A DNA stretch of 49,472 bases from Rhizobacter sp. Root1238 (lineage in GTDB: Bacteria; Pseudomonadota; Gammaproteobacteria; Burkholderiales; Burkholderiaceae_C). The notes under the pieces were generated by a model that was not told the DNA's origin, made no database searches, and was given only the letters and a program-made list of their open reading frames with translations. The position numbers and the translations under genes are program-made. Below, one piece after another: positions 15,294 through 18,458 of the stretch. The stretch is from the NCBI RefSeq assembly GCF_001425825.1, contig NZ_LMDM01000028.1, forward strand, positions 1-49,472, written 5' to 3'. Numbering within the stretch: position 1 is the stretch's first letter; the number at the start of each line of letters is the position of its first letter.

Positions 15294-16409
15294 ATGGACC
15301 CGATCGACACGCTCGCCCGCATCGTCACCGACACCGTGGAGCCGCTCGCGCTGCGTACGGACCGAGAGGGACGCTTCCCGCGAGAGACGATCACCGCGCT
15401 GGGCGAGGCCGGGCTGCTCGGCCTGGTGTCGGCCCCGTCGGTCGGCGGGCTCGGGCTGGGGCTGAAGGAGGCCAGCCAGGTCGTCTCGCGCCTCGCGCAG
15501 GCCTGCCCGTCGACCGCGATGATCGTCTGCATGCACTACTGCGCGGTCGCGGTGATCGAGTCCACCGACAAGCCCGCCGTCCGCGAGGCCATCGCGCGTG
15601 GCCGGCACCTGAGCACGCTCGCGTTCTCCGAGGCCGATTCGCGCAGCCACTTCTGGGCGCCGACCGGCACCGCGCGCACCGACGGCAACGCGGTGCTGCT
15701 CGACGCGCGCAAGAGCTGGGTCACCTCGGCCTTCGAGGCCGACAGCTACGTCTGGTCGAGCAAGCCGCTGACGGCCGAGGGCGCCAGCACGCTGTGGTTC
15801 GTGGATGCCAAGAGTGACGGCCTGAGCCAGCCCGGCGCGTTCGACGGGCTGGGCCTGCGCGGCAACGCATCGACGCCGATCACCGCGCAGGGCGTGCGCA
15901 TCGGCCTGGGTGACCGGCTGGGCGAGGACGGCAAGGGCTTCGACACGATGATGGGCGTGGTACTGCCGTGGTTTTCGGTGCTGAGCGCGTCGTGCTCGGC
16001 CGGCCTGATGGAAGGCGCGTTGTCGCGCGCGATCGGCCACGTCGGCCAGACGCGCCACCTGCACCTCGGCAGCTCGCTGGCCGACCTGCCGACGATCCGC
16101 GCCTACCTGGCCCGCGCGCGCATCAAAGCCGACATGGTGCAGGCGCTGATCGACGACACGCTGGCGGCGATCGGCGGTGGCCGCGCCGACACGATGCTGC
16201 GCGTGCTGGAGGTGAAGGCCGCCGCGGCCGAAGCCGCGCTGGAGGTGACCGATACCGCGATGCGCGTGTGCGGCGGCGCGGCCTTCCGCAAGGAGGCCGG
16301 CATCGAGCGGCTGTTCCGCGATGCGCGCGCATCGAGCGTGATGGCGCCGACCTCGGACGTGCTGTACGACTTCATCGGCAAGGCCATCACCGGCCTGCCG
16401 CTGTTCTGA
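15294..16409 (+). CDS. Acyl-CoA dehydrogenase-superfamily flavoprotein, lacking canonical base motif
   Basis: The 371-residue protein has the layout of the superfamily: an N-terminal helical domain, a middle beta domain (LAFSEADSRSHF near 105, WVTSAFEADSYVWSS near 142) and a C-terminal helical bundle ending in CGGAAFRKEAGIERLFRD. The usual YEGT segment with the catalytic glutamate of acyl-CoA dehydrogenases is replaced by VMAPTSDVLYDFIG, so a different reaction is likely; flavin monooxygenases such as DszC and SfnB-type sulfur enzymes share this fold. A GGAGA site precedes ATG 15294. It is the first of three genes between selA and selB with short gaps, which suggests co-transcription. Confidence 0.85.
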   Translation: MDPIDTLARIVTDTVEPLALRTDREGRFPRETITALGEAGLLGLVSAPSVGGLGLGLKEASQVVSRLAQACPSTAMIVCMHYCAVAVIESTDKPAVREAIARGRHLSTLAFSEADSRSHFWAPTGTARTDGNAVLLDARKSWVTSAFEADSYVWSSKPLTAEGASTLWFVDAKSDGLSQPGAFDGLGLRGNASTPITAQGVRIGLGDRLGEDGKGFDTMMGVVLPWFSVLSASCSAGLMEGALSRAIGHVGQTRHLHLGSSLADLPTIRAYLARARIKADMVQALIDDTLAAIGGGRADTMLRVLEVKAAAAEAALEVTDTAMRVCGGAAFRKEAGIERLFRDARASSVMAPTSDVLYDFIGKAITGLPLF

Positions 16410-16420
16410 AGGACGCGACG

Positions 16421-17281
16421 ATGAGCGACTCCACGCTGATCATGGGCGCCGTCGCCTACGCGCCCAAGGTCGTCACGATCTGGGAGGGCTTCAAGGCCTT
16501 CTTCGCGCGGCAGGGCCTGGCCTTCGACTACCTGCTGTACTCCAACTACGAGCGCCAGGTCGAGGCGCAGTTCGACGGCGCGATCCATCTGGCCTGGAAC
16601 TCGCCGCTCGCGTGGGTGCGCGCCGACCGGCTCGCCCGCGCGCGCGGCCAGGCCGTGCAGGCGGTCGCGATGCGCGACACCGACTGCGACCTGCGTTCGG
16701 TGGTCGTCGTGCGTGCCGACAGCCCGCTGCAGGCGCTCGCCGACCTGCGCGGTGCGCGCGTGGGCACCGGCGCGATCGATTCGCCGCAGGCCACGCTGAT
16801 CCCGCTCGGGCTGCTGCGCGCGCACGGACTGGTGGCCGGCCGCGACTTCACGCTGCGCCGTTTCGACGTGCTCGGCGGCAAGCACGGCGACCACATCGGC
16901 GGCGAGCGCGATGCGGCCGTCGCGCTGCTGGCCGGCGAGGTCGACGCCTGCTGCCTGATCGACGGCAACCACCTCGCGTTCGGGCTCGACGGCACGCTGC
17001 CGGCCGGCAGCACGCGCGTGATCGCGCGCACCGATCCCTACGACCATTGCAATTTCACGACCAGCCCGGGCGCGCCGGCGGCGTTGATCGACCGCTTCAC
17101 GTCGCTGCTGCTTGCGATGCGCTGGGACGATCCGGACGTGCGCCCGCTGCTCGAGCTGGAGGGGTTGCGCGAATGGCGAATCGGCCGCACCAGCGGCTAC
17201 GCGCTGCTCGAGCGGGCGGTCGACGACGAAGGGTTCTACAGCGATGACGGGCGCATCCTTGCCAGCGACTATCGATATTGA
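16421..17281 (+). CDS. PhnD/TauA-like substrate-binding protein without signal peptide
   Basis: The 286-residue protein matches periplasmic binding proteins of the phosphate/phosphonate type: [11 protein letters not shown] at the start, [26 protein letters not shown] in the first lobe, [17 protein letters not shown] and [17 protein letters not shown] (here [12 protein letters not shown]) across the hinge. It begins directly with MSDSTLIMG and lacks a signal peptide. So it probably binds its ligand in the cytoplasm, perhaps as a carrier or a sensor, and no ABC permease or ATPase is adjacent. The 3' end overlaps the next gene by 38 bases. The ligand cannot be read from the sequence. Confidence 0.85.
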
Positions 17282-18458
17282 GTCGCTGGCGCTGGACCAG
17301 GGCGCGCTGCTGCTGGTCCGCCGCGCGCTGGCCGCCCTCGCTGATGGCGACGAGCTGCGCGTGCGCGGCCGTGCCGACGCGTGGGACCTGCACCTGGCCG
17401 CGTGGTGCCGGCAGCAGGGCCATGCACTGCGCTTCGAGACCGATGCACAAGGATGCCTGCAAGGCGTGCTGACGCGCGGCCCGTCGGCCGCGGGTCGCTG
17501 GCGCGGCGCGCAGCGCGCCGGCCCCGTGGCAGGAAGCGAAGCCACCGCCACCGAAGCGCGCGCCGACTGGGGCCTGGCCGCGCGCGGCGCGACGGTGGAG
17601 GCCGGCAGCCCGGCCTTCGCGTTCGGGCTGCGACAGCGCCACGAGCTGTGGGCCGCCACCGCCGGCGAGCTCTACGCGCAGGCGGCAGCCGCGCAGTGGG
17701 ATCCGGCAACCGCGATCGACTGGACCGCGCCGTTCGAGCTCGCGCCGGAAATCGAGGCCGCCGTCGTGCAGGTGATGACCTACCTGGTCGAGAACGAGAA
17801 CGCAGCGCTGCTGGTGCCGGCGCGGCACCTCGGGCAGATCCACCCGCACTACCGCGAGGTGCTGCAACTGCTCGCGCTGCAGTGCGCCGACGAGGCGCGG
17901 CATGTCGAGGTGTTCACGCGCCGCGCCGCGCTGCGTGGCCTGCCGCCGGCGCTGTCGACGGCCGGCGGGCAGGCCTCGCTGCGCACGCTGTTCGACGCGC
18001 CGGATTTCTCGACGGCGACCTTCCTGCTCTCGGTGCTCGGCGAGGGCAGCTTCGTGAACCTGCTGAACTTCCTGCACGAGCGCGGGCCCGATCCGGTCAC
18101 GCGCCAGGTTGCGCGGCTCGCGGCGCGCGACGAGGGCCGGCACGTGGCCTTCGGGATGGCGCACCTGGAGTACCGGCTCGCGGTCGAGCCCGACTACCAG
18201 GTGCGGCTGCGCAATGCGATCGAGCAGCGCTTCGATGCGCTGGCGAACACCGCGGGGCTGAACGAGGAGGTGTTCGATGCGCTGGTGCTGCTGGCCGCGG
18301 GCGCGTTGACGCCGGACGCGGTGGCGCGGGGGCATGCGGCCGTGCAGCAGCTGAAGCGCGAGATGGCGGCCGGGCGGCGTGCCCGGCTGAGCCGGCTGGG
18401 CTTCGAACGCGCCGAGGCCGAGCGCCTGGCCGACCTGCACACGCGCAACTTCATGTAG
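17244..18458 (+). CDS. TusA/SirA-like domain fused to ferritin-like di-iron domain
   Basis: The 404-residue product has two parts. Residues about 10-70 look like a TusA/SirA-like sulfur-carrier domain ([24 protein letters not shown], then [11 protein letters not shown]) but lack the CPxP cysteine of active carriers. From about 150 a helical bundle carries two ExxH motifs, DEARH (E217, H220) and DEGRH (E297, H300), plus upstream glutamates in [10 protein letters not shown] and GEGSF. This is the ligand pattern of ferritin-like di-iron oxygenases. ATG 17244 was chosen, giving a 38-base overlap with the binding-protein gene. Function unknown; an oxidative role on a sulfur or selenium compound is only an inference from context. 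Confidence 0.8.

Follow-up and report, generated by a model that had tools for sequence, protein, structure and literature searches.

The window analyzed here, a 49,472-nucleotide stretch of Rhizobacter sp. Root1238 DNA (contig NZ_LMDM01000028.1, positions 1 to 49,472, forward strand), carries three genes, which we call A, B, and C, between the selenocysteine (Sec) genes selA and selB. All three are open frames on one strand, and the gene order is fdnG, fdnH, fdnI, fdhE, selA, A, B, C, selB, and tRNA-Sec, with the following features:

8145..11234, + strand, fdnG-like formate dehydrogenase subunit, named by resemblance without a family-library scan
12783..13802, + strand, fdhE (TIGR01562, 241.4 bits, cut-off 187.65)
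13802..15280, + strand, selA (TIGR00474, 569.4 bits, cut-off 267.9)
15294..16409, + strand, gene A, 371 aa, flavoprotein of the acyl-CoA dehydrogenase (ACAD) fold with the catalytic Glu replaced (Pfam ACAD domains, NF049984, alignment)
16421..17281, + strand, gene B, 286 aa, Phosphonate-bd fold protein without a signal peptide by a heuristic (PF12974, NF049985, alignment)
17244..18458, + strand, gene C, 404 aa from the ATG, TusA-like domain fused to a di-iron oxygenase-like domain (AurF profile, alignment, model)
17265..17474, + strand, TusA-like domain of C, residues 8-77, no CPxP Cys (profile, alignment)
17661..18452, + strand, di-iron domain of C, residues 140-403 (alignment, model)
18475..20394, + strand, selB (TIGR00475, 446.6 bits, cut-off 242.25)
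20403..20498, + strand, tRNA-Sec (tRNA search)

The names fdnG, fdnH, and fdnI rest on resemblance, not on a family scan. In the fdnG-like gene, the Sec UGA lies in frame at 8730-8732, and SECIS_3 is matched at 8727-8785. On another contig, the same genome has selD adjacent to a TIGR04553-type transporter. selA and A are separated by 13 nt, A and B by 11 nt, and C and selB by 16 nt, and B and C overlap by 38 nt, which bears out the tight three-gene run between selA and selB noticed in a preliminary description of this DNA. Since A, B, and C lie this close to each other and to selA and selB, they are likely carried with the two sel genes on one transcript.

A-B-C is a real conserved gene set, beyond chance. 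A scan for relatives of C with one genome per species gave 293, and the best 80 were kept as loci; as the most similar of the 293, they are weighted towards loci like that of the window. With tblastn, B was located in 78 of the 80 loci, the other two (L074 and L088) starting inside C at a contig end, and A in 68 (partial in L035 and L098). Of 72 A-B pairs measured, 69 have the two genes within 300 nt of each other, and an overlap of B with C is present in 74 of 78. B and C stand without A in nine Caulobacteraceae-type loci and in L054. The closest named locus among the 80 fetched is that of Rhizobacter sp. OV335 (L025), whose C is 97% identical. In the alignments behind the residue counts given below, the window's proteins are joined by 67 of 79 homologues for C, 68 of 83 for B, and 60 of 72 for A; the rest, near-duplicates along with a small number of other rows, were removed by hand. 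One copy has decayed (L017:18229-19655, genome G084): B is split in two frames, C has an in-frame stop, and no di-iron part was found there; this genome has SenB and SelU over cut-off, with no selA found.

The selenium link drawn from the window extends past its operon to selA/selB, selD, and selenoneine clusters elsewhere, in several arrangements and in two phyla. Within 10 kb of the module and within the flanks, several of which end at contig ends, 26 of the 80 loci have selA or selB, and a further 11, with L067 and L068 coming from a single strain, have selD alone. Sixteen loci have selA immediately before the set and selB immediately after it. In L033, selA-ABC is followed by a flavoprotein and a selenate-type ABC transporter and then by selB; five loci are arranged selA-selB-tRNASec-ABC, among them L049, where selD follows; L029 has selD-selA on the opposite strand and tRNASec before ABC; two Azoarcus loci have selA, three genes, and then ABC; and L092 has an arrangement on opposite strands (the tRNA search covered 60 of the 80 loci). 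Xenophilus, Hydrogenophaga, and others show ABC-selD with no selA in the flank, and two Lampropedia loci have an A copy between C and selD (L081:11233-12348 and L096:11229-12341), L081 having an A copy before B as well. C is followed directly by selD on the same strand in L049, L052, L067, L069, L076, L080, L091, L093, and L095. By resemblance, selD and a selenate-type ABC transporter come after selB and tRNASec in nine of the 11 Variovorax loci and in Pseudacidovorax. In two Hydrogenophaga loci (L091 and L095), the module lies inside a selenoneine cluster that contains a selenate-type ABC transporter as well as senA and senB; L091 encodes SelD, SenA (score 505.7, cut-off 420), SenB (443.9, cut-off 300), and a TIGR04553 binding protein (400.9, cut-off 250), and the SenA of L095 scores 507.4.

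A binomial estimate gives 1.4 of 80 loci expected near selenium genes against 37 seen; it is rough, as it presumes that each 5 Mb holds four selenium loci of 22 kb and that the 80 loci are independent, which they are not. On a tree of 82 B proteins, which left out two of 83 B rows, the selenium-linked label needs 10 changes, six of them forced by starred branches.

Other genes recur around the module. ArsR-HTH and rhodanese regulators lie near some copies (L091:15129-15788, L095:16080-17127, and L131:133-1244), with a DsrE-like gene in L095 and L131. Flavoproteins are found at L033:11391-12614, L090:4882-6246, and L094:4852-6216, the Azoarcus ones judged by eye; that of L033 matches NF049943 (type III SQR, seleno subtype) at 89.2 bits, short of the cut-off of 525. 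In the Peristeroidobacter locus (L029:7503-8022), only a 33-residue selB-like stretch precedes tRNA-Sec, and no full selB was seen in the locus. Outside A-B-C, positions 4999-5084 of the window match the C4 antisense RNA (RF01695, 70 bits, gathering score 45).

Co-occurrence with selA was found at one taxonomic level and not at the other. In an even sample of the family (n = 230), a B ortholog is present in eight genomes, the window's being one of them, and all eight have selA compared with 52 of the 222 others (p 1.5e-5). B and selA are no more than 10 kb apart in five of the eight, and selA is also present in two (G133 and G626) that carry the module on another contig. In an even sample of the order, no selA enrichment was observed, with selA in three of eight carriers and in 105 of 391 others (p 0.45); B orthologs there were matches of at least 200 bits plus the split copy of G084, the next match scoring 117.7 bits or less. 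Among the fetched carriers, selA lies in the flank of 26 and elsewhere in the genome of 35 of 49 searched, compared with 108 of 399 in the order (p 1.9e-9 for the 35 of 49, a biased sample). This search took in 49 of the 54 loci without selA or selB in the flank, leaving out L039, L045, L068, L074, and L084. Of the 75 fetched carriers examined, selA is present in 61, and either selA or an over-cut-off selD-family gene in 73.

No selA was found in 14 of the 49 searched carriers, of which 12 have a selD-family gene and 10 selU over cut-off, making SelD the likelier common point. Adding five carriers from the order sample gives 19 without selA, and selU exceeds its cut-off in 15 of them. SenB does so in three of 26 carriers tested. 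Some of these counts may include proteins other than true SelD, as selD-family matches near 280 bits may represent an oxidoreductase/SelD-related fusion. A role in Sec alone is rejected by the carriers without selA, and the earlier suggestion that the set recycles selenium for SelA is too narrow. The module goes with selenium use generally, not with Sec alone, and most selenium users lack it; with a B ortholog in eight of the 60 selA genomes of the family sample, it is not present wherever selA is and is not core Sec machinery.

The A protein exceeds the Pfam cut-offs for the ACAD N-terminal (PF02771, 51.5 bits, cut-off 22.9) and C-terminal (PF00441, 67.4 bits, cut-off 22.4) domains, and the middle domain falls just under (32.0 versus 33.3 bits). 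Its segment VMAPTSDV aligns with IYEGTSEI of solved short-chain acyl-CoA dehydrogenases, which puts an Ala at the position of the catalytic Glu. This position is Ala, Gly, or Ser in 61 of 61 aligned sequences and never Glu, so the loss of this Glu, which goes with the replaced YEGT segment noticed in the window, is shared by all of them, and an ordinary acyl-CoA dehydrogenase is rejected. Without the dehydrogenase base, A probably carries out a flavin oxidation or monooxygenation. The best curated family is Rv1679/FadE16 (NF049984), at 409 bits against a cut-off of 600.

B is over the cut-off for the Phosphonate-bd domain (PF12974, 104.1 bits, cut-off 27), and its best curated family is Rv1680 (NF049985), at 228.7 bits with a cut-off of 400. 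The alignment shows invariant D120, S121, K154, H155, D157, H209, and C210. A strongly hydrophobic N-terminus was seen in none of 83 B homologues (maximum 1.97, compared with 2.35 for one exported-type relative), in agreement with the cytosolic location first proposed; this is a hydrophobicity heuristic, not a signal-peptide predictor. In the window, the interval from selA to selB holds A, B, and C alone, with no ABC ATPase or permease gene beside B. The organosulfur and phosphonate acquisition families that A and B had been said to resemble are distant, the nearest curated ones being Rv1679 (FadE16) and Rv1680, neither over cut-off; what stands of the new three-protein enzyme set in the preliminary description is the conserved set with its selenium link.

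For C, the profile score, the metal ligands, and the predicted fold all place the protein with the AurF-like/ferritin-like di-iron oxygenases. The AurF profile scores 35.4 bits (cut-off 29.6), and E183, E217, H220, E267, E297, and H300 are invariant in 68 of 68 aligned sequences, E183 and E267 completing the usual set around the two motifs (E217/H220 and E297/H300) already recognized in the window. The predicted model folds like VlmB, R2lox, and aldehyde-deformylating oxygenase (ADO) in a VIA-align comparison, and C may accordingly be regarded as a putative O2-activating enzyme. Of the TusA-like/di-iron fusion described earlier, the di-iron half holds, and the TusA-like half is under the Pfam cut-off (18.4 versus 28.6 bits) and lacks the CPxP cysteine of TusA in 68 of 68 aligned sequences; Cys55 in this domain is kept in 63 of 68. 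A profile of the domain does match a protein with CPxP at locus L018 (E 6.3e-8 in a set of 320 sequences). Because the sulfur-carrying Cys is missing, the domain, which had been taken to point to sulfur or selenium handling, is no evidence for sulfur transfer, and a sulfur relay by C is rejected.

In searches of plasmid records (E limits 1e-30, 1e-60, and 1e-4), A and B turned up together in three, each from an actinobacterium: Miltoncostaea oceani, Mycolicibacterium vanbaalenii, and Rhodococcus opacus. A and B are adjacent in all three. On the Miltoncostaea plasmid (Actinomycetota), A and B are 55% and 64% identical to those of the window and lie about 6 kb from selD of a selB-selA-selD group. 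In M. vanbaalenii, a membrane protein of the Rv1678 type (72.1 bits, cut-off 50) is encoded before A-B and an Rv1681-family radical SAM protein (535.7 bits, cut-off 380) after it. With A-B standing without C in these actinobacteria and B-C without A in the Caulobacteraceae-type loci, B is the one part that the C-containing and the actinobacterial versions of the set share.

On the Miltoncostaea plasmid (L133:3205-12850), the genes that separate A-B from selB-selA-selD encode DM13, DoxX, AhpD-like, GT2, and DUF2064-Nudix proteins and an Rv1681-like radical SAM protein (225.5 bits, cut-off of 380 not reached); a DUF2515 and a radical SAM/SPASM protein follow B. An arsenosugar reading of this cluster was rejected, as DUF2064 (126.2 versus 134) and GT2 (48.1 versus 182) score below cut-off. 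A deiodinase-family-like protein (L134:4896-5711, 64.9 bits, cut-off 250) lies near the M. vanbaalenii cassette. A TusA-like N-terminus in the Rv1681-type radical SAM protein of M. vanbaalenii, suggested by visual resemblance, was also rejected, since four of 300 shuffled copies outscored it with the domain profile.

We hypothesize that A-B-C is an accessory selenium-provisioning module of O2-using bacteria, a reading to which we give a probability of about 0.45. B, as a cytosolic protein related to binding proteins of the phosphonate/selenate type, would capture a small selenium compound; A would oxidize this ligand by flavin oxidation or monooxygenation; and C would convert the compound together with A, for example by oxidative C-Se cleavage or recycling of methylated selenium. 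The three would thus work in one pathway whose product would be inorganic selenium, made into selenophosphate by SelD for Sec, 2-selenouridine, or selenoneine. A methylated or alkyl selenium substrate is a guess with a low chance of being right. The provisioning reading, which takes the direction to be supply rather than synthesis, is suggested by SelD being the common partner of these traits and a frequent neighbor, and by B belonging to the superfamily of the transporter protein encoded beside selD. It is also suggested by the chemistry: a flavoprotein that lacks the dehydrogenase base, together with a VlmB-like di-iron enzyme, could cleave C-heteroatom bonds with O2.

Several observations weigh against this provisioning role or narrow it. 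The preliminary description had named two patterns that would count against its hypothesis, genes lying mostly outside selenium clusters and selA-selB without them as the rule in close relatives, and both were found in part: selA without the module is usual in the family, where 52 of the 60 selA genomes of the sample have no B, and 43 of the 80 loci have none of selA, selB, and selD in the available flank (several flanks end at contig ends). Together they indicate an accessory part rather than a core part of Sec synthesis; they limit the claim, and the co-occurrence remains. The 80 loci, besides their lean towards the window's type, are not independent of each other. The missing selA enrichment in the order sample counts here as well, and a selD-family gene, present there in eight of eight carriers (E 4e-83 or better), is over cut-off in 277 of 391 others (p 0.11). 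A Delftia metagenome-assembled genome (G178) and a fragmented Ideonella draft (G190) have no selA, selU, or selD over cut-off. A is missing from all eight genomes searched of the 10 with B-C only (best family match 150.5 bits, compared with 409 for the window's A), and C was not found on any plasmid record at E 1e-4, including the three actinobacterial A-B loci. M. tuberculosis, the source of the Rv1678-Rv1681 names, is not known to have selenium genes.

The main rival, which we consider possible but doubtful, is that the module uses selenophosphate to build a small molecule or cofactor that contains selenium and is new, in the way that senA-senB-senC makes selenoneine, which would make it another trait of selenium use. 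The loci with C then selD on the same strand have the layout of selenophosphate-using biosynthetic genes, and the oxygenase, the flavoprotein, and the radical SAM partners of Actinomycetota look biosynthetic; however, the core set contains no Se-installing transferase or glycosyltransferase, and Sec supply is the simpler account of the 16 loci with the set directly between selA and selB. It is unlikely that the module acts on an organosulfur or other oxyanion or organic compound, with a non-selenium ancestral role in Actinomycetota and a selenium linkage that reflects shared regulation or derived use. The order sample would fit this, as would the ArsR-rhodanese and DsrE genes near some copies and the A-B pairs without C beside DoxX and radical SAM genes (Mycolicibacterium) or DoxX (Rhodococcus), where no gene of the stretch shown is annotated as a selenium gene, but it does not account for the repeated linkage to selA/selB, selD, and sen genes across many genera and in Miltoncostaea, nor for the eight of eight family-sample carriers with selA.

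A role in selenium stress, in which the set detoxifies excess selenium or a damaging methylated or oxidized by-product instead of supplying selenium, appears quite improbable. The predicted O2-activating fold and the linkage to uptake-type (selenate-like ABC) and use genes alike are compatible with it, but the set sits beside selenium-use genes, and a cytosolic binding fold would suit scarcity better than excess. Least probable is that unrelated genes were inserted once into the formate dehydrogenase/Sec operon and then inherited. The selA-ABC-selB layout does belong mostly to one clade (Variovorax, Rhizobacter, Hydrogenophaga, and kin), but the other layouts, the label changes on the B tree, the occurrence in another phylum, and the selA of G133 and G626 speak against hitch-hiking.

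Leaving the direction of the pathway aside, A-B-C, with its actinobacterial cousin and radical SAM partner, may tentatively be seen as an additional selenium-use trait, with a pathway dedicated either to making an undescribed selenium compound or to breaking it down for its selenium. If true, this trait would be common to Sec, selenouridine, and selenoneine users and would give a first lead on the Rv1678-Rv1681 families; the set attaches the hypothesis to the curated families Rv1679 and Rv1680, whose function is unassigned. According to a 2026 review, a selenium transport system that is specific and of high affinity has yet to be identified in prokaryotes, and it is incompletely understood in which form SelD uses Se in vivo and which system donates it (PMC13188914). 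A set conserved alongside selenium genes in different genera and in two phyla provides named genes for testing the selenium route to SelD.

The folds of A, B, and C are known singly; the set and its selenium link are undescribed in the literature searched. No paper on the module was found there, mostly outside subscription journals, and the available parts of PMC7176365, PMC9312934, and PMC13188914 do not name it. The Rv1678, Rv1679, Rv1680, and Rv1681 families (NCBIfam NF049986, NF049984, NF049985, and NF049973) are the nearest, A and B matching NF049984 and NF049985 best, but both proteins are under the curated cut-offs, and the partners are DoxX-like and radical SAM proteins there and C here. 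The putative selenate ABC binding protein TIGR04553 shares the Phosphonate-bd superfamily with B; its gene set is located next to selD in the genome of the window and, judged by resemblance, close to the module in nine of 11 Variovorax loci; however, it is exported and has ABC partners, whereas B has no signal peptide and scores 37.3 against the cut-off of 250. C differs from the azoxy synthase VlmB, R2lox, and the aldehyde-deformylating oxygenase by an identity of about 20% or less and by the added TusA-like domain. The selenium candidates YedE, YedF, DUF3343, and a LysR-like protein were likewise proposed from selenium-gene context (Lin et al. 2015, PMC5322559) but belong to other families, and the available part of that paper does not mention acyl-CoA, ferritin, phosphonate, di-iron, or TusA. 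The selenoneine genes senA, senB, and selD (senC) enclose A-B-C in two clusters, beside selD, while A, B, and C match families other than SenA and SenB. Closest in reasoning, and a precedent for the provisioning reading, are the type I mlp clusters, for which anaerobic methyl-selenium salvage has been proposed from their carriage by selenium users and their linkage to Sec genes (PMC10418091); those clusters encode corrinoid methyltransferases of anoxic settings, whereas A-B-C encodes flavin and di-iron proteins.

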